A stretch of 6,255 bases of DNA from contig JAKAWN010000115.1 of the NCBI GenBank assembly GCA_021827245.1, positions 10,139 through 16,393 on the forward strand, in the 5' to 3' direction. The stretch comes from Acidobacteriota bacterium (GTDB taxonomy: Bacteria > Acidobacteriota > Terriglobia > UBA7540). Positions within the stretch are counted from its first letter, which is position 1; every line of letters begins with the position of its first letter. Made by a program: the position numbers and the translations under genes. The notes beneath the pieces are model-generated. The model searched no databases, was not told the DNA's origin, and saw nothing but the letters and a program-made list of their open reading frames with translations. Below are positions 1 to 6,255 of the stretch, in pieces.

Positions 1-1261
1 TGATGCCCAGGTTGCAGGTGGTCGCGCCAGGGCAGGCGTTGACGTCGGCGATCGTGCGGGCACCGGGTGTCACAAGGTCAAGCGCCCGAAGTTCGCGATA
101 GATCTCGGCTGCATGATGGAGCGGTGTCCACGGCAGGATCATGTCCTGGGAAATCGCAATGCGAATCACCGAGAGAGAGAATTTCTCGATCAAGCTCGCC
201 AAACCCAATAACTGGCGAGTCAGAACGGTTCCGGCCTTCAGCTTGATCCAGATAATCCCGAATCCGGGCTGCCGCTGCGGCTCGAGGTTGTGACGGAGCC
301 AGCGTTCGTAGTCTTCGCCTTCTCCATTCAACCCAGATGAGGAAGGCGTCAGTGGGACCAGCGAGGGCAGGGGCGGTGGCGGCACGGTGAAAACTTCCGC
401 GGGCGTTGTCACCTCGGCGCGCTTCGCCGCCACCAATCGTTTGAATTCCTCGATACCCTTTTCACGAAGGACGAATTTCATTCTCGCCTTGTGCTTGTTC
501 CCGCGATTGCCGTGCTCGTTGAAGACGTGGAGAATGGCATCCAGAGTGGGGAAAAGTTCTTCTTCAGGCAGGAATTCGGCGAAGACTTGAGCTTCGGTCG
601 GCAAACTACCCAAGCCACCGCCGACGAGCACGTGGAAGCCCTTTCTCGCCGTACCGTTTGATCCGCGCAAGCGAGCGATCAAGCCGATGTCGTGGATCGC
701 AGCCGCAGCGCAATTTCCGTCGTCCTCACATCCGGAAAAGGCGATCTTGAATTTGCGGGGAAGATCGGGAAATTCCGGATGACGCAGGAAGAATCGCGTG
801 GTGGCGAGCGCGTAGGGAGTGACGTCAAAGGACTCGTGCCGGCACAACCCAGCCAGTGGGCAGCTGGTCACGTTACGAACGGTGTTGCCGCACGCTTCGC
901 GGGTAGTGAGGCCGCAGGCGGCCAGCCTGCGCATAATTGCCGGGACATGCCCCATCCGGACGAAGTGAAATTGGCAGTTTTCCCGAGTGGTAACGTGCCC
1001 GCGGCCGGTCGAAAACTCCTCGGCGATGCCGGCAAGCGCGCGAAGCTGCTGGGGATTCAAAAGTCCCGAAGGAATCTTGACTCTCACCATTTGGAAGCCG
1101 GACTGGCGCTGTCCGTAGATGCCGTGTTTCAGTCGGAACGGGCGGAACTCCTCTTCGGTAATCTCGCCGCACCTGAGCCGTTCGGCGAGAAGTTCAAAAG
1201 CGAGGATTTCCTGCTCAATCGCGCCAGGGGAATGCCGAGCCGCAACTTCGGTCTCGATCAC
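1..1261 (-). CDS. Nitrite/sulfite reductase (siroheme, [4Fe-4S]), C-terminus outside the window
   Basis: This is the first 420 codons of a ferredoxin-type nitrite/sulfite reductase, a cytoplasmic enzyme that reduces nitrite to ammonia or sulfite to sulfide with six electrons at a coupled siroheme/[4Fe-4S] centre. Residues 46-61 (HGIYGQRQSGFQMVRV) and 88-103 (GHVTTRENCQFHFVRM) are the N-terminal ferredoxin-like and siroheme-binding motifs. Residues 126-139 read NTVRNVTSCPLAGL and 170-190 carry KFKIAFSGC. A Pro/Ser-rich linker separates this from the second half-domain. The visible end, C410-PGATT-C416, is the first C-x5-C pair of the cluster site; the C-x3-C pair would lie beyond base 1. The GTG start at 1259-1261 is chosen because GGAGG (complement at 1267-1271) sits 5 nt upstream and the conserved N-terminus follows. 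The nearby ATG is in another frame. Nitrite and sulfite specificity cannot be separated from this part alone. Confidence 0.93.
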   Translation of the reverse strand, partial: MIETEVAARHSPGAIEQEILAFELLAERLRCGEITEEEFRPFRLKHGIYGQRQSGFQMVRVKIPSGLLNPQQLRALAGIAEEFSTGRGHVTTRENCQFHFVRMGHVPAIMRRLAACGLTTREACGNTVRNVTSCPLAGLCRHESFDVTPYALATTRFFLRHPEFPDLPRKFKIAFSGCEDDGNCAAAAIHDIGLIARLRGSNGTARKGFHVLVGGGLGSLPTEAQVFAEFLPEEELFPTLDAILHVFNEHGNRGNKHKARMKFVLREKGIEEFKRLVAAKRAEVTTPAEVFTVPPPPLPSLVPLTPSSSGLNGEGEDYERWLRHNLEPQRQPGFGIIWIKLKAGTVLTRQLLGLASLIEKFSLSVIRIAISQDMILPWTPLHHAAEIYRELRALDLVTPGARTIADVNACPGATTCNLGI

Positions 1262-1433
1262 AGGAGCCTCCAAAGAACATAGGAATTCCCAATCTCCTGG
1301 CGACCGATTTCCGGCTTCGAACTGGAGTTGCTTTTCTTAGGAAGGAAACTCGCGCCAGAAGACGTTTGGGTACACTAGCGACAGCAACACATGAAAAACT
1401 GCGTCTTCGGGCAAGAGAACAACATAGGCGGCC
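1262..1433. other. Intergenic region upstream of the reductase
   Basis: Apart from the reductase ribosome binding site at 1267-1271, I see no gene, RNA structure or clear -35/-10 pair here. The promoter for the minus-strand reductase should lie in this stretch, but no hexamer pair is good enough to name. Confidence 0.5.
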
Positions 1434-1634
1434 ATGATATCCGCGGAAGGTTCAGCGGTCAAGAAAACTTTCGCAGAAAGCTTTGGCAAGAGGACGCGCG
1501 AAAGGGTCTCGCCAGATCAGAAGCGGCTGAAACGCCTGGGGAGCGGCAAGCGACTATCGGGAACGAAGCCCCTACGGAAATCACCGGGAAAGCCTTCCGT
1601 ACCGACTCCGACAACGGACGGGCGCCTGTCTTGA
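1434..1634 (+). CDS. Possible small basic hypothetical protein (weak)
   Basis: This is a 66-codon ORF from ATG to TGA encoding a Lys/Arg/Ser/Pro/Thr-rich peptide that begins MISAEGSAVKKTFAESFGKR. It looks disordered and strongly basic, with no signal peptide, membrane segment or known motif. The upstream sequence (ataggcggcc) gives at best a poor ribosome binding site. It is the only plus-strand ORF in the 410-base gap between the reductase start and the regulator fragment that does not run far into the opposite-strand gene. It would be transcribed towards that fragment. Third-position base choice is not distinctive. It could equally be non-coding sequence, or the remnant of a deleted gene. 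I do not recognise a family. Confidence 0.2.
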   Translation: MISAEGSAVKKTFAESFGKRTRERVSPDQKRLKRLGSGKRLSGTKPLRKSPGKPSVPTPTTDGRLS

Positions 1635-1672
1635 ACCACGGGGAGCGGACGGCCCGGCCGGGCGAACGAAAT

Positions 1673-2236
1673 TCAATCAGAAATCCGGCGCGCAGTTTCG
1701 CCGGCCTCCGTCGGTCTTTCCTCGACAATTCGCATCGTGACCCCAGTCACCCGACCGACGATTTCGGCTTCCGATGGATACTCAAAGCGCCGCACGTCTT
1801 GATGGGAATGAGGGTGCGGAATCACGATCAACTGGCCGCGGCCGATTTGGCACCAACTACAAATGTAGCCGTTTCGAAGTTCTACAAAATATATGGGACG
1901 GTCGAATTCGGTGTTCCATTTCTCGCCACTGATTCTCCTTTGGTCGGGATCGATTTGCACTAGGGAGCCAGGCCGGATCAGGGGGTAAAGGGTGAAGTCC
2001 CCGAGGCCGATGTAGCCGTAAACGGATTTGCGTAGGTCGAGATGTTGCAAGAGGGCGACAGGGATTTCATCCCACTTGTCCACGACGCGCGAGAGCAGAT
2101 TGGTGCGTTCCAGCTGAAACTCGGGCTTGAACCGAACGGGGATGGACACTTTGGCTACTTCCGCGTCCCCATCGGCCTCGAGGAGGTGCGTCCGCGGCAC
2201 CCCAATCGAAGCACGAACGCGGCCCAGATGTATTAG
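1673..2236 (-). pseudogene. C-terminal S24-like half of an XRE/HTH regulator, 5' truncated at an insertion sequence
   Basis: The open frame runs from just inside the IS boundary (2236) to TGA at 1673-1675. It has no plausible start except a GTG at 2198-2200 without a ribosome binding site. Counting from that GTG, the conserved core includes VYGYIGLGDFTLYPLIRPGS (about residues 60-79), then FDRPIYFVELRNGYICSWC, GQLIVIPHPHSHQDVRRFEY and EAEIVGRVTGVTMRI. I recognise this as the C-terminal, S24-peptidase-like sensor part of a regulator family that normally has an N-terminal XRE-type helix-turn-helix; it seems common in Acidobacteriota. The DNA-binding half, roughly 150 residues by recall of the family, is absent. 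It is not found beyond the right end of the insertion sequence either, so part of the gene has been lost rather than merely split. The frame is the same as that of the upstream transposase, separated by the shared TGA at 2237-2239. It is probably non-functional. Confidence 0.75.
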
Positions 2237-3178
2237 TCAAGAGGGATTCCTGACAGCTTGAGAGTGCCGAGCGAGTTCTTGAACTCGCTCGGCTGGAGTC
2301 TTGCCTTTCAGCGCCAGATGAGGACGCCGCTCGTTGTACTCCTTCTCCCAACGCTTCAGCTTGCGGGCCAGTTCCTTCCGACTTCCAAAATGCTTCCCCC
2401 GATAAAACTCCTCGGCGTCGGTCTTGTGACTTCGCTCGACTTTCCCGTTGACTTCAGGGCATGCGGGCGGGATATGGCGATGAGCAATGCCCATGTCCGC
2501 AAGATGCCAGGTGAACAGGGACCCAAAGGAGGAGTCGTTGTCGGTTTGGATGCGCTGGATCGCGAAGGGCAAGCGGCGACGAACCTCATCGAGGAAAGCC
2601 ACCGCGGAACGCGTGTTGTTGTGGTCATAGATGCGCAGAACGCGGTAGCGCGTCGCTTCGTCGATCGCCGTGAACTGGTAGAAGCGTTGGCGAGCTCGGC
2701 CGACCCGGGGAACGAATTTCACATCGACCTGGACAGACTGTCCTGGAGTCGGCAGTGGTCCCTCCGCCTGGGGCTTGGGCCCAGGGCGGTACCGCTTCAG
2801 GGAAACACGCCCGACGTGATGGCGGCGGAAGATCTTCAGGATGGTCGTCGGCGAGACGTAGACCTGGTAGTGGCGTTGGAGATAGAGACTCATGCGCACG
2901 GCCCCGTAGCGGCGTTCCTCGCGGATGCGCAGGATCAGCGCAATGACTTCGGGAGGAATACGATAGCGAATCCTGGAAGGCCTGCGGGACCGGTCCCGCA
3001 GGCCTTCCCTGCCGTTCTTCTCGAACCGGCGGAGCCAAATGTAGGACTGCGCGCGAGAGATGCCAAAGAACCGGCAGGTCTGGCTCACGTTGTGAGAGAT
3101 CTTCTGGGCGTGTTGCAGCATGCGGAACCGGGTCTTGACCTTGCGGGCTTGCTCCTGCTCGAAAAGTGGACGCTTCAT
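2237..3178 (-). CDS. IS481-family transposase (DDE integrase fold)
   Basis: This is a 313-residue transposase that cuts and joins the element's ends. The N-terminal helix-turn-helix region is at about residues 27-67 (ISHNVSQTCRFFGISRAQSY), followed by the family's GLRDRSRRP segment. The rve-type catalytic core has D152 (VQVDVKFV), D213 (IQTDNDSSFG) and E248 (PEVNGKVERSHK). That is 34 residues between the second Asp and the Glu, the DD(35)E spacing. The C-terminal YNERRPHLALKGKTPAERV is also typical. The start at 3176-3178 is chosen because AGGAGG (complement 3185-3190) lies 6 nt upstream. An in-frame ATG at 3206-3208 would place that ribosome binding site inside the gene. The frame is intact, so the element may be active. 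The start region and gene interior contain unusual inverted repeats, listed separately. Confidence 0.95.
   Translation of the reverse strand: MKRPLFEQEQARKVKTRFRMLQHAQKISHNVSQTCRFFGISRAQSYIWLRRFEKNGREGLRDRSRRPSRIRYRIPPEVIALILRIREERRYGAVRMSLYLQRHYQVYVSPTTILKIFRRHHVGRVSLKRYRPGPKPQAEGPLPTPGQSVQVDVKFVPRVGRARQRFYQFTAIDEATRYRVLRIYDHNNTRSAVAFLDEVRRRLPFAIQRIQTDNDSSFGSLFTWHLADMGIAHRHIPPACPEVNGKVERSHKTDAEEFYRGKHFGSRKELARKLKRWEKEYNERRPHLALKGKTPAERVQELARHSQAVRNPS
2266..2293. repeat. Perfect 13-bp-stem hairpin near the 3' end of the transposase gene
   Basis: GCCGAGCGAGTTC (2266-2278), a TT loop, then GAACTCGCTCGGC (2281-2293) form a perfect stem. It lies inside the codons for PAERVQELAR, about 30 bases before the stop codon and close to the left end of the element. 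There is no T-run after it on either strand, so it is not a standard intrinsic terminator. Confidence 0.9.
2975..3008. repeat. Perfect 34-bp palindrome inside the transposase gene
   Basis: The half GGAAGGCCTGCGGGACC (2975-2991) is followed without a spacer by its exact reverse complement (2992-3008). The next base pair outward does not match. It covers the codons of the conserved GLRDRSRRPS segment. In mRNA it would fold into a very stable GC-rich hairpin about 170 bases into the gene. Confidence 0.95.
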
Positions 3179-3226
3179 TCCGGACCTCCTCTTGAGGGTG
3201 GTCAGCATACCCCACCTGTCCGGAAT
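3177..3226 (-). promoter_or_regulatory. Leader hairpin of the transposase mRNA, pairing across the start codon
   Basis: On the minus strand ATTCCGGAC (3226-3218) is perfectly complementary to GTCCGGAAT (3185-3177). The second arm includes the first two bases of the transposase ATG (3178-3176) and follows directly on AGGAGG. A nested GGTGG/CCACC pair (3216-3212 with 3201-3197) can extend the structure. The outer arm is part of the terminal inverted repeat. It would therefore be present only in transcripts that enter from outside or begin at the very tip. Such transcripts could hide the start codon. Confidence 0.6.
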
Positions 3227-3300
3227 GTCTATTAGCAGCTACAAGGGCGTGGGGCGTAACGCATGTTGCGATGGAAGCCACTAGCGTTTATATGTCCTTA

Positions 3301-3329
3301 TGTTGACAAAATGGCACCGAATGTCAACA
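3301..3329. promoter_or_regulatory. Inverted repeat, probable TetR operator
   Basis: TGTTGACA (3301-3308) and TGTCAACA (3322-3329) are perfect 8-bp inverted arms separated by 13 bases, ending 11 bases before the chosen TetR start. The left arm contains TTGACA, a consensus -35 hexamer. The sequence 17 bases on (AACACT) is a poor -10, so the promoter itself is not clear. Position and symmetry fit autorepression by the following gene. Confidence 0.55.
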
Positions 3330-3340
3330 CTGGAATCACA

Positions 3341-3994
3341 ATGACAGATTCTGCAAAGAGAGAAAGGGTCCTTACGGCAGCGGGGAGAGTGTTCCTGAGG
3401 TATGGTTTCAAGCGGGCAACAATGGGGAAGATCGCGAAAGTGGCACACATTTCCAGACCTGCGATTTACCTCATTTTCCCTTCCAAAGAGGAAGCTTTTA
3501 CTGCAGTCCTCGATCAGGTATTGAGACGAATGCTCGAACAAATTCGTCAAGGGATCGACGGTTTCCCCGACATACGAGGGAAACTGCTCTTTGCCTTCGA
3601 TGTGTGGTATGCCTGTCCGTTCGAACTGATGCAAGCGTCACCTGACACAAAGAATCTCTATGACACCCAGTATGGGTTCGCTGAGGAAGTCACGACAATG
3701 GCTCTCAGTGTATTCGCTAGGCTCGTGGCCGACTTATTAGAGTCACAGGTCGAAAAGCAGGCGAGAGTGGAGTTATCTTCCGGCCAGATCGCAGAGGTGC
3801 TCACAGGTGCGATAGCCGGGTTCAAGAACACGGCGAAGACGCCGAAGGAGCTACGTCACCTGATCGGCAATCTAATCACAGTGGTTCTGGCGAGTCTTGA
3901 GGAGGGCGGTTCGCCCGTCGATTCCGCCCCAGCAGTTGCTACTGGTGCGGCCTTTGCGGATGCTCCATCCCCGCCGGAGCCGCAGGAATGCTGA
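3341..3994 (+). CDS. TetR/AcrR-family transcriptional regulator
   Basis: This is a 217-residue DNA-binding repressor of the TetR family. The N-terminal helix-turn-helix is clear: RERVLTAAGRVFLRYGFKRA (7-26), TMGKIAKVAHISRPAIYLIF (27-46), then PSKEEAF. The C-terminal ligand-binding part is helical and not assignable to a ligand. The last 30 residues or so are Ala/Pro/Ser-rich, an unusual tail for the family. The ATG at 3341 is preferred because MTDSAKRERVL is the normal distance from the helix-turn-helix; GGA lies 6 nt upstream. In-frame ATGs at 3263 and 3311 would overlap the probable operator and add a non-conserved extension. The gene starts about 105 bases from the insertion sequence, which faces away from it. 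No transporter follows here, so the target is unknown; autoregulation through the 3301-3329 repeat is inferred. Confidence 0.93.
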   Translation: MTDSAKRERVLTAAGRVFLRYGFKRATMGKIAKVAHISRPAIYLIFPSKEEAFTAVLDQVLRRMLEQIRQGIDGFPDIRGKLLFAFDVWYACPFELMQASPDTKNLYDTQYGFAEEVTTMALSVFARLVADLLESQVEKQARVELSSGQIAEVLTGAIAGFKNTAKTPKELRHLIGNLITVVLASLEEGGSPVDSAPAVATGAAFADAPSPPEPQEC

Positions 3995-4044
3995 TTGCTG
4001 TTGCTGCGGAGTTCTGATCGACTGCACCGGAACCCACCCTCGGC

Positions 4045-4263
4045 GTGGGCTTGATTGTGAGCTCGATGCCCCACGACGAGCACTACTTTTCGATCGGCAC
4101 CAAGGAAGGGAAGGTGATGGCGGTCCAAGCGGACAAACACGACTACAAGCAGATTGCGGGAAGGCTTCAAAATTCCACTGGTGTCCCGATTCGAGTCACG
4201 GCAAAAGACGCTCACTACTTGGATGGCTTCAATCTGAAGGTCGAGAGCATTTCATCGAAATAA
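4045..4263 (+). CDS. Small hypothetical protein, possibly a fragment
   Basis: This is a 72-codon ORF from GTG at 4045; an internal ATG at 4066 is an alternative start. Neither has a strong ribosome binding site. The peptide contains HDEHYFSIGTKEGKVMAVQA and a regular alternation of charged and hydrophobic residues up to NLKVESISSK, which looks like real soluble protein. It follows the TetR gene by 50 bases on the same strand and could be co-transcribed. The frame upstream is closed by a TGA at 4015-4017. Just before that stop is a short hydrophobic stretch (ATG at 3988, MLIAVAAEF), so an older secreted protein may have lost its signal sequence through frameshift or stop mutations. I do not recognise the family. 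Confidence 0.5.
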   Translation: MGLIVSSMPHDEHYFSIGTKEGKVMAVQADKHDYKQIAGRLQNSTGVPIRVTAKDAHYLDGFNLKVESISSK

Positions 4264-4308
4264 CCTTGCCGGCCAATCATCGCGACTCCCGTGTCGCAGG
4301 GGAAGGGA

Positions 4309-4340
4309 GGGGGTCACAGACGTCGGAGTGCGTGACCCCC
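4309..4340. repeat. 9-bp-stem inverted repeat in an intergenic region
   Basis: GGGGGTCAC (4309-4317) and GTGACCCCC (4332-4340) are perfect arms around a 14-base loop (AGACGTCGGAGTGC). No T-run follows on either strand, so a standard intrinsic terminator is unlikely. It lies 45 bases after the small ORF ending at 4263. It resembles dispersed palindromic intergenic repeats, but only one copy is present in this window. Confidence 0.6.
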
Positions 4341-4488
4341 GGACCAGGAACAGCATTCATTGACTCGAAACGCTATTACAGTGTGCGGTTGTCATCAAGC
4401 TGTTGTGCGGAACGAGCAATACCGGAACTGGGGAGGACTGCGACTTCGGCTGCCTGGTGTACAGGCTGTCGCAAGGGGAACTCACGCG

Positions 4489-4887
4489 ATGAAGAAGCTT
4501 GTGCTTGGCCTGCTTTTGGCCTCCGCGTTGATCGTACTCTCGTGCTCGCAAAGACAAACGGACATGTCTGTCTATCGCGGCTGCCCCATGCAAGGTGATG
4601 TCCGCGCTTTCGGCGGCCCTGCGAGCAAGATGCCACGAATCGATTCAGAGGATGCACGCCGGACGGCTGCGCCGTGCTCTCACGCGCGGCAGGGCGCCAA
4701 TTCGAGGCCATCGGACATGGATGCCAGAGTAGTCAGCAATCGACAGCGGCGAAATCCTCGTCCTGGTCCCTGCACCTGTCACCGCACGGGGCGTCCGGCA
4801 CGCCAGTCTCCCGGTAGGCCCAGGGCGCGTCCCATACCCGCAGCAGGAAGCACCAAATTTCTTCTCGGAGTTTCGGCCCAAAGTTGA
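4489..4887 (+). CDS. Lipoprotein-like ORF with a doubtful 3' part
   Basis: The ATG at 4489 follows AGGGGA at a usable distance. The N-terminus, MKKLVLGLLLASALIVLSCS, is a good lipoprotein signal peptide: two Lys, a hydrophobic core, and Cys19 in VLSC as the likely lipidated residue. This would send the product to the periplasmic face of a membrane. From about residue 45 the sequence becomes Arg/Pro/Ala-rich without recognisable structure. The ORF runs 155 bases into the Nmad2-type gene on the opposite strand. I infer that the start is genuine but that the 3' part is either decayed or out of frame, so the real stop may be earlier in the ancestral gene. No family is recognised. Confidence 0.4.
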   Translation: MKKLVLGLLLASALIVLSCSQRQTDMSVYRGCPMQGDVRAFGGPASKMPRIDSEDARRTAAPCSHARQGANSRPSDMDARVVSNRQRRNPRPGPCTCHRTGRPARQSPGRPRARPIPAAGSTKFLLGVSAQS

Positions 4888-5380
4888 CGCGGAAGCCCTG
4901 TCCAAGGTTTTCGATCAGCGTCTTGAGAAGCCGGTACTCTTCCTTGTAGCTCAGCGGGCAGTCGGAGCTGAAGTAGCGGAAGTTTCTCCGGCCTTTGCTG
5001 AGGAGCACGTTCGCCCTCCCGTAGCTAGGGTGTTCGCCTAGGTCGTGTCCCAGGTCGGACTTCTGGTGAAATCTTGCGTCGGCCTTCCATTCAAACCGGG
5101 TGCCGTCCCAGCGGTAAATGCAATCCGGCCTCGCGGCGTATCGCCGCTGTGTGAAATATTTCTTACCGTGCAGGTTCTTCGTGACCCTAGCTGCATAGAC
5201 CAAGCAGTTGTCCCTGTACAGGGAGTTGGCTGCGAAGCCAAGAATTGTGTCTCCGCGTCCTGCGGCAGAGCGGATGGCAGGCTTGCAGATAGCGAGGGAG
5301 AGCAAGTTGTCGCGCACGCAAGGCGCGCCGCCGTCGTCCGTGGTCATTTTGTAGATGAAGACCTTGCGATTCTCCTCCAT
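4733..5380 (-). CDS. Nmad2-type protein (nucleotide modification associated domain 2)
   Basis: This is a 215-residue soluble protein that I recognise as the Nmad2 family, a domain described by comparative genomics in connection with modified nucleotides. The biochemical activity is not established. Diagnostic segments are KVFIYKMTTDDGGAPCVRDN (6-25), LLSLAICKPAIR (26-37), DTILGFAAN (44-52), ARPDCIYRW (83-91), ADARFHQ (100-106), DLGEHPSYGRANVLLS (113-128) and NFRYFSS (133-139). The ATG at 5378-5380 is supported by AAGGGA 5 nt upstream, and the conserved core begins at residue 6. The last 30 or so residues (ending REETGVPDAP-like, then charged) are less conserved. It is convergent with the lipoprotein-like ORF and overlaps its 3' end. 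It lies 348 bases downstream of the lasso-type precursor on the same strand, too far to assume an operon. Confidence 0.8.
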   Translation of the reverse strand: MEENRKVFIYKMTTDDGGAPCVRDNLLSLAICKPAIRSAAGRGDTILGFAANSLYRDNCLVYAARVTKNLHGKKYFTQRRYAARPDCIYRWDGTRFEWKADARFHQKSDLGHDLGEHPSYGRANVLLSKGRRNFRYFSSDCPLSYKEEYRLLKTLIENLGQGFRVNFGPKLREEIWCFLLRVWDAPWAYRETGVPDAPCGDRCRDQDEDFAAVDC

Positions 5381-5728
5381 AATTTCCCTTTCAGAATGCT
5401 GGGCAGCGGCAGTATCACCACTTCAGCTGGTTCACAACCACAATTGTGCACTCCAGACAGCAAGTGACCATCCGGTCGCCCACGGGCTGCCTTCGGGCTT
5501 GGGGAAACCTGTGCCCTCGGCCATTTCTCAGACAATCTTTCCGACACCTCGCTCACTTCCGGATTACACGATATGTTCTCCACTGCGGGTCTCGGAGAGC
5601 GAACGAAGCCAGGCAAGACCACTCCGGTACAAATCGAGGATTCGTGGAGCAGAGGCCCGCCGGCGCGTTGAATCACACAATACCTTGAAGGCACTCGCCC
5701 GCGGCCGTCGGCTAACGTCATACCTCGG
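5381..5728. other. Non-coding or decayed stretch between the precursor peptide and the Nmad2-type gene
   Basis: I see no convincing gene here. A minus-strand frame from ATG at 5719-5721 runs 125 codons to 5344. It starts 7 bases after the precursor stop, but its GAGG is only one base from the ATG, it overlaps the Nmad2 start and its product resembles no family. I specifically looked for lasso processing genes (PqqD-like B1, transglutaminase-like B2, asparagine-synthetase-like C) and found none. The promoter of the Nmad2-type gene probably lies here. Confidence 0.4.
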
Positions 5729-5959
5729 CTACTGACCCGAAGACGAATGGTGCCCCGAACTGTTTGAGTTCGGCGGAGAATCCAAGATCGGCCCATGTGA
5801 TGTTTCCGTTATTTCCCGAAGCGTTCCGAATGTCACCAGCTTCGGCGAATAGTACGGAAGCCCTTCGTCAACGGGTTTCGGTGCGGTGGTTCGTCCCAAG
5901 TGTGAAAGACTGCCGGTGCTTTGCCGCGAGGAACTATGACGATTTTGGGGGGACAGCAT
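5729..5959 (-). CDS. Lasso-type RiPP precursor peptide candidate
   Basis: The product is a 76-residue peptide with an exact lasso leader motif, YYSPKLVTFGTLREIT (Y36-x2-P39-x-L41-x3-G45-x5-T51). In this family a PqqD-like protein binds the Y-P-L part, and the Thr stands at position -2 to the cleavage site. Applying that rule, cleavage after E52 gives a 24-residue core starting TSHGPILD. The amine of T53 and the side chain of D60 could then close an 8-residue ring. Starting at S54 would give a 7-residue ring. The tail is Ser/Gly/His/Asn-rich. The ATG at 5957-5959 is the first start after an in-frame TAG 12 bases upstream. Its ribosome binding site is weak (GGGA), and TTG at residue 21 is an alternative. 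The leader is longer than usual. No processing genes are in the window, so it is an orphan candidate. Confidence 0.65.
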   Translation of the reverse strand: MLSPQNRHSSSRQSTGSLSHLGRTTAPKPVDEGLPYYSPKLVTFGTLREITETSHGPILDSPPNSNSSGHHSSSGQ

Positions 5960-6017
5960 ACGGTTTTCCCACTAAAACACACGAAGCTACATGGAGGGTG
6001 CGACCCGCACAAGAGAG

Positions 6018-6023
6018 AAGGAG
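6018..6023 (+). promoter_or_regulatory. Strong ribosome binding site of the broken gene at 6030
   Basis: AAGGAG, extended to AAGGAGAGG, stands six bases before an ATG. It is one of the best ribosome binding sites in the window. It is the main reason to regard the ten-codon ORF as the true start of a disrupted gene. Confidence 0.6.
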
Positions 6024-6029
6024 AGGCGA

Positions 6030-6062
6030 ATGGCACGTTTGTTTCAATACCCTGAAGGCTAG
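6030..6062 (+). pseudogene. 5' stub of a gene interrupted by an IS5-family element
   Basis: ATG at 6030 follows AAGGAG at ideal spacing and begins MARLFQYPEG. It stops at TAG (6060-6062), which lies in the CTAG at the junction with the insertion element. The rest of the gene must lie beyond the element, outside the window, if it still exists. Ten residues are too few to identify the product. It would be transcribed divergently from the lasso-type precursor, sharing the roughly 70-base region 5960-6029 as a promoter area. Confidence 0.5.
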
Positions 6063-6255
6063 AGCGCATCTCATAAATGCCTCAAGAGGATGATGAGGCA
6101 GCCGAGTTGGAGCATGGCCAGGAAGTTGGCCTCGTGAAACTCCCAGCGAGTGACGAGGCGGCGGAAATTATGCAGCCAAGCGAACAATCGTTCGATCTTC
6201 CAGCGGCGGCAGTAGCGCCGCAGTTCCCGGCCATCCTGGGTCTTGTCCCGGCGAT
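6059..6255 (-). mobile_element. IS5-family insertion sequence, one end only
   Basis: The 3' end of the transposase gene stops at 6071 and the element's end lies just beyond it. CTAG at 6059-6062 fits the YTAR target that many IS5-family elements duplicate, so the element probably begins at 6063, give or take a few bases. The other end is outside the window, so the terminal repeats cannot be compared. Confidence 0.7.
6071..6255 (-). CDS. IS5-family transposase, C-terminal 60 residues (partial)
   Basis: This is the C-terminus of a DDE transposase of the IS4/IS5 superfamily, entering from the right edge of the window. The segment [20 protein letters not shown] contains the Y-(2)-R-(3)-E signature: Y14, R17 and catalytic E21 of the visible fragment. 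The usual Lys seven residues after the Glu is His28 (WLHNFRRL), a common variant in IS5 subgroups as I recall. The hydrophobic C-terminus, [18 protein letters not shown], is typical for these proteins. Stop TGA is at 6071-6073. The start and first two catalytic residues are outside the window. The family name is secure; the subgroup is not. Confidence 0.93.

Follow-up and report, generated by a model that had tools for sequence, protein, structure and literature searches.

The paeninodin (PadeA/PadeK) and pseudomycoidin (PsmK/PsmN) systems, as outlined in passages of PMC9266682, carry the genes for the lasso proteins B1, B2 and C (the cyclase), an HPr-kinase-like protein and a nucleotidyltransferase in one cluster. 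According to the same passages, kinases of such clusters phosphorylate the C-terminal Ser, and attaching a sugar to the phosphate requires a nucleotidyltransferase homologue. These genes likewise stand together in relatives of the open reading frame (ORF) described here, which lies in a 6,255-nucleotide stretch of DNA from a soil acidobacterium that was analysed as a whole (the window). The relatives differ from both systems in being acidobacterial, in their gene order (B1-B2-C-A-kinase-nucleotidyltransferase, with A the precursor gene) and in the overlap of A with C in four of five. None of the 23 aligned subfamily cores ends in Ser, and the leaders have YxxP where paeninodin-like leaders have WxxP (excerpts of PMC13381572). 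Unlike the paeninodin and pseudomycoidin clusters, the window copy adjoins none of the enzymes.

Gene content alone, not precursor sequence, likens the subfamily to the soil-metagenome lasso clusters 40.1, 482.1 and 44.1, for which sections of PMC9064862 give acidobacterial B1, B2, C and A genes, one of the three having two A genes and a gene named as a kinase; the window copy has no enzymes alongside. Bradymonadales BsfA (excerpts of PMC10368454) shares YxxPxL at −17 to −12, a ring to Asp8 and a kinase in the cluster, but has Ile(−2) and Gly1 against Thr(−2) and a predicted Thr1 in the window ORF; the same excerpts mention Ile/Val(−2) precursors in Acidobacteriaceae as well. Metanodin (excerpts of PMC12670498) has in common that it is a soil-metagenome lasso peptide with Thr(−2) and an uncommon residue 1 (Asn), but its proteobacterial-type ABC cluster is unlike that of the window subfamily; the comparison covers source, residues −2 and 1 and cluster type. 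The NCBIfam models NF033521 (lasso_leader_L3) and NF033528 (lasso_cyano) have the same leader motif, and the window ORF falls under both cut-offs, being unmatched by the first and reaching 13–14 bits with the second (cut-off 33). The two models matched five and six, respectively, of the six members of alignment A2 (E≤10), with the copies from genomes G140 and G116 exceeding the NF033521 cut-off. A search of open-licence literature by title or abstract start returned, among the matches listed, no paper dealing with the subfamily, with Thr1 lasso peptides or with B1-B2 at a separate locus.

The precursor ORF and its start

The ORF occupies positions 5729..5959 on the reverse strand, encodes 76 residues from ATG to TAG and had no Pfam family match. 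The original prediction of a perfect Y-x2-P-x-L-x3-G-x5-T leader held: the motif is exact (Y36-Y-S-P39-K-L41-VTF-G45-TLREI-T51; 5807..5854, reverse strand), its spacing (Y−17 to T−2) is that given in excerpts of PMC10368454, and it never arose, alone or with Asp/Glu, in 300 dinucleotide shuffles of the window. Two features of lasso membership, Y-x2-P-x-L at −17 to −12 and Thr at −2, are both present. Placing T51 at −2 gives a leader of 52 residues and a predicted 24-residue core, T53-Q76 (TSHGPILDSPPNSNSSGHHSSSGQ; 5732..5803, reverse strand). Lasso precursors are expected to have Asp or Glu at core position 7–9. The predicted ring-closing Asp60 (5780..5782, reverse strand) is core residue 8, within this range and as originally proposed, and it is invariant in 23/23 aligned sequences. 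So is the tail residue His71 (core residue 19; 5747..5749, reverse strand), a candidate plug. The tail following the ring Asp is SPPNSNSSGHHSSSGQ, with a Ser ahead of PPN that had been left out of the earlier reading. The ORF has no internal stop and retains every invariant residue.

Homology opens at residue 23–27, where the relatives start, and continues to the end; residues 1–26 (5882..5959, reverse strand) form an N-terminal extension without homology. The in-frame start candidates are ATG 5957-5959 and TTG 5897-5899, and a GCA at 5882-5884 occupies the position of the GTG start in the cluster homologues. The AGGAGGA ribosome-binding site of the relatives is absent, neither ATG nor TTG has a convincing ribosome-binding site, and a search for a sigma-70-like promoter at 5381-6255 found none. 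The leader had been described as long, which is right when the window ORF is set against the five cluster copies (35 residues ahead of the motif Tyr vs 8–12) and less distinctive beside P0027, P0009 and P0014, which as called have 25, 20 and 18. These longer leaders mean that an upstream start in the window ORF could be real.

Relatives and conservation

With the full 76-residue query, the clustered protein set gave no candidate (no shared words), none of 104 pattern stretches in genome contigs was confirmed by tblastn, and the genomes of nine relatives gave weak matches in 5/9 (best E 0.04). The last 45 residues matched 9/299 class genomes (E≤0.05, per genome). Five of these belong to the subfamily, led by G168 (53% identity, E 3e-8) and followed by G192 (2.6e-6), G116 (5e-6), G057 (2e-4) and G140 (0.002); the four weaker matches fall outside it. 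A six-sequence profile searched against 5.8 billion proteins returned 26 matches, 20 of them in the subfamily and one source-named Candidatus Acidoferrales, and a 25-row profile returned 134, with P0027 added from among the 120 matches listed. Across 396 phylum genomes, the subfamily profile was strong only in G168, with two others at about 2e-8. A light probe for a viral source (exact 33-base pattern and a profile scan of viral contigs) gave no relative.

The final alignment of 23 sequences is invariant at leader Y, P, L, G and T(−2), at Asp8 and at tail H19, and the homologue search that had been proposed thus found the leader motif conserved in frame. About 20 homologues share the leader, ring Asp and tail His, and all five located in the genomes searched adjoin B1, B2, cyclase and kinase genes, in agreement with the original call of a lasso-type precursor. 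That the ORF is a true lasso precursor is well supported by this homology. The aromatic-free tail, by comparison, had been taken as odd and as a sign of a different fate, which the alignment does not bear out: F, W and Y are missing from 16/23 tails, including 4/5 encoded directly behind a lasso cyclase, and since such tails are common in the family they are no argument for another fate. Phe immediately follows Asp in five of the seven tails with aromatics. Cys is found in 20/23 cores (two each in 19, four in one), where its pairing makes a disulfide possible; the window core is among the three without Cys.

Divergence at codon positions 1, 2 and 3 was 0.46–0.54, 0.33–0.50 and 0.60–0.79 between the window copy and the five cluster copies, and 0.31–0.52, 0.28–0.49 and 0.44–0.73 among the cluster copies themselves. 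Coding constraint, which had been named as a check, is therefore visible in the base substitutions, third positions being favoured as among intact copies, and this excess shows that selection acted on the precursor frame over much of its past. Of the five window-cluster comparisons, four had saturated dS, and the fifth gave dN 0.62 and dS 1.28. At conserved columns the window copy is the most deviant of the 23 (5/15), with P0008, from an intact cluster, deviating at 4/16. Among residues invariant in the other five, 4/13 are changed in the window copy, 3/12 in L021 (the same peptide as P0008) and 0/9 in the other four. Since L021, from an intact cluster, is changed as well, the coding part does not by itself show a pseudogene.

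Core register and ring size

By the Y(−17) spacing, which excerpts of PMC10368454 describe as verified for BsfA, the core would start at Thr53 and close an 8-residue ring. Residue 1 in the 23 sequences is Thr (19), Ser (2) or Val (2), and residue 2 is Ala (14), Gly (5) or Ser (4), with Ser54 in the window copy. Because residue 2 is always Ala, Gly or Ser, a cut one residue later, giving a 7-residue ring, is possible. Lasso cores are expected to have Gly, Ala, Ser or Cys as residue 1. Asn1 is known from metanodin (excerpts of PMC12670498). Queries from the window-ORF family gathered 151 distinct acidobacterial leader-motif peptides, a set biased towards that family for this reason; the residues at position 1 include Thr (58), Ala (29), Asn (17), Ser (13) and Gly (9). 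The first acidic core residue in these lasso-type peptides stood mostly at 8, 9 or 10. The rarity of Gly1 and the acid at 8, 9 or 10 are hints of unusual ring sizes or cleavage registers. The subfamily thus raises a question of cleavage register, Thr1 with an 8-residue ring vs Gly/Ala/Ser1 with a 7-residue ring. For the window precursor, the computed monoisotopic mass is 2368.04 with a core from Thr53 and 2267.00 with one from Ser54, each phosphate adding 79.97.

Operons of the relatives

All five cluster copies keep the one gene order given above, and 4/5 have a divergent ABC transporter gene. Pfam detected B2 (PF13471) and the cyclase (PF00733) in 5/5 clusters, confirmed PqqD in both clusters tested (L054, L055) and found NTP_transf_5 in 3/4 ORFs tested, the L053 ORF being a badly chosen frame. 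For the kinase, HPr_kinase_C was sub-threshold in the four tested (25.7–31.5 bits vs a cut-off of 33.3), and the other cluster gene calls rest on profiles built from the same clusters. A opens with GTG within the end of C, behind AAGGAGGA, in 4/5 clusters, and in the fifth starts with ATG about ten bases past C.

In these relatives, the Y..P.L...G leader would be recognised by the PqqD-like B1 and cleaved by B2, with the conserved Thr as its penultimate residue. Macrolactam closure onto Asp8 would fall to C, and decoration of the Ser-rich tail to the HPr-kinase-like enzyme and the nucleotidyltransferase. The C-termini of the 23 cores are P (8), K (5), A (3), G (2), C (2), Q, R and H, with Ser in none, so the phosphate acceptor would be an internal Ser or Thr.

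Surroundings of the window copy

The ORF had been described as an orphan with no processing genes nearby, and profile, tblastn and Pfam searches agree on this within the window. No window ORF (stop-to-stop, at least 20 aa) matched a B1, B2, C, kinase, nucleotidyltransferase or ABC profile at E<0.5, and Pfam found no lasso-processing enzymes in eight chosen window ORFs. A tblastn of 21 cluster proteins against the window (without composition correction) gave scattered weak matches, the lowest (E 6.5e-4) lying over the IS481 stretch with one nucleotidyltransferase-region ORF as query and the next (E 0.003) from an ABC protein, through the precursor ORF on the opposite strand; as the profiles do not support them, we read these matches as noise. 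The kinase is absent from the window, and an HPr-kinase-like gene stands beside A in all five nearest relatives. The stretch between the start of homology and the insertion sequence (5885..6058) has no cyclase 3′ end match, unlike the homologous operons, and there is no C in the 205 nt from the motif Tyr to the IS5-type element. No remnant of a cyclase or kinase flanking the ORF turned up in tblastn, in profile searches or in DNA alignments scored against shuffles. The alignments with six relatives gave z of −1.4 to 2.0 for the upstream flank, −1.3 to 3.7 for the downstream flank (highest with L020 and L019) and 1.0 to 5.9 for the coding part (>4 with three).

The end of an IS4/IS5-type element (Pfam DDE_Tnp_1) covers 6059..6255 on the reverse strand, with CTAG at 6059-6062 and the transposase stop codon at 6071-6073; the transposase frame points towards the precursor ORF, and the window terminates about 195 nt inside the element. 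Matches of the query 5381-6255 in 35/399 class genomes (E≤1e-4) are accounted for by this IS end, which is identical over 124/124 nt to a contig-end copy in G168, a second copy being 98% identical; contigs C20 and C111 of G168 start inside the same element. Window positions 1-5400 were unmatched in G168 at E≤1e-20, so the window is not from the assembled part of that genome. A partial sulfite/nitrite-reductase-like protein (2-1273) has 63–71% identity in nine Acidobacteria/Terriglobia MAG loci, and a wider draw found it in 26/399 class genomes at E≤1e-150 (best 71–73% identity). The reductase, IS and window matches point to different degrees of closeness between the host and G168.

Adjoining the precursor is a protein with nucleotide-modification-associated domain 2 (Nmad2; Pfam; 4733-5380, reverse strand). 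An IS481-family element (2229-3243; transposase 2237-3208, reverse strand) matches stretches of G128 and G260 at 73% and 71% identity. A 175-aa protein without family (1673-2200, reverse strand) is kept in other Acidobacteria, with 53% identity in L060 and DNA matches in G290, G263, G160, G152 and G006.

Frequency of lone precursors

The order of G168 (95 genomes) contained 63 leader matches in 56 genomes (E≤0.001) and B2 in 67 genomes, and 61 of the 63 matches adjoin B2 (41, within 5 kb) or C (20). One of the remaining two (G128:C3) sits at the end of its contig and is followed by a kinase 0.6 kb downstream, and the other (G287:C309) is a true orphan. This peptide (L167, G287:C309:5280-5357) is the only other leader peptide in the order without a cyclase (15 kb examined), and B2 was undetected in its genome. 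Among 46 distinct A peptides, a set that informs spacing and not orphan frequency because it was picked for a same-strand cyclase or kinase nearby, 45 are preceded by C (median gap 55 nt) and 44 are followed by the kinase. The distance from cyclase stop to motif Tyr spans 10–782 nt, exceeding 205 nt in 5/45, and is 10–49 nt in the five closest operons.

We also observed split lasso operons in G144, G203, G260, G148, G156, G180, G070, G266, G236 and four more genomes (L151-L168 vs L169-L182): cyclase-precursor-kinase occupies one locus, and B1-B2, in some cases accompanied by an ABC transporter, a second. B1-B2 occurred without a cyclase in the stretch examined at 13/14 B2 loci, these loci having been chosen because A had no B2 nearby, and in 9/13 split systems both loci lie on contigs of 13–519 kb. 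The separate loci imply that the B proteins act in trans there, unless binning mixes genomes.

Discussion

We consider the window ORF to be, with a probability of roughly 55%, a precursor gene of an acidobacterial kinase-type lasso subfamily that was displaced from its operon and is now a weakly expressed or decaying remnant. This reading draws on the lack of C and kinase neighbours, the GCA in place of a GTG start, the missing ribosome-binding site and the standing of the copy as the most deviant of 23. Counted against it are the intact ORF with all its invariant residues, the nearly equal deviance of P0008, the long leaders elsewhere, and downstream-flank scores above shuffles with L020 (z 3.7) and L019 (z 2.2). 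The homology, the invariant residues, the operons of five relatives and the absence of the enzymes from the window are observed, and displacement, loss of function and the chemistry are what we infer.

A functional stand-alone precursor, with translation starting at the upstream ATG or TTG and maturation in trans by B1, B2 and C from elsewhere in the genome, widening the product range of a resident cluster, is somewhat unlikely. Action of the B proteins in trans seems common in the order of G168, where 13 genomes split C-A-kinase from B1-B2; the complete cluster of G168, the genome with the identical IS end, includes the A gene that matches best among the genomes; and the window ORF has kept its leader motif, ring Asp and tail His. 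However, C and the kinase remain beside A even in split systems, and neither a convincing ribosome-binding site nor a sigma-70-like promoter accompanies the ORF. In addition, among MAGs of unknown completeness, the eight nearest reductase relatives (68–73% identity) had no B2 at E≤0.001, and B2 was found in 4/12 genomes of the same search. The fuller proposal, in which borrowed resident enzymes would turn a free-standing, IS-flanked precursor in trans into a lasso with a His plug, closed from Thr1 to Asp8 (or from a small residue 1 to Asp7), is rather unlikely.

The operon may instead still be there, C and A being separated by an inserted copy of the IS, a multicopy element within which the contig breaks. 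The end of the window within the IS, the start of G168 contigs C20 and C111 in the same element and the transposase frame directed at the ORF are consistent with this, and because the window stops inside a multicopy IS, a cyclase could lie just beyond (5/45 known gaps exceed 205 nt). We nevertheless regard it as quite improbable, since the 205 nt hold no cyclase 3′ end where the closest operons have gaps of 10–49 nt, and the kinase, downstream in 44/46 cases, is absent. Recruitment of the leader to a non-lasso product could appeal to the tail without aromatics and to the YxxP leaders that serve another RiPP family in Bacillota (excerpts of PMC13381572), but the invariant Asp and the like tails of relatives encoded beside lasso cyclases make it very improbable. 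A chance ORF is hardly credible: the clustered protein set gave no candidate and the ribosome-binding site is unconvincing, but homologues and shuffles contradict it, with homology over about 50 codons (E to 3e-8), the motif in no shuffle and an excess of third-position change, and we rejected it.

Returning to the displaced gene, we read the window copy as long under selection and later separated from its operon, its present function being uncertain. The precursor stands alone between the Nmad2-type gene and the IS insertion, its product would be made rarely or never, and the copy may no longer be used. The window ORF adds another member to the already known lasso precursors, and what is unusual about it is its location, without cluster neighbours. 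If maturation in trans by borrowed enzymes were true, a solitary precursor would be a further step beyond the already dispersed lasso enzymes, and precursors could move and borrow resident enzymes. Here a lasso precursor lies outside its operon in a phylum whose enzymes often occupy two loci, and cluster-based mining will therefore miss such genes.
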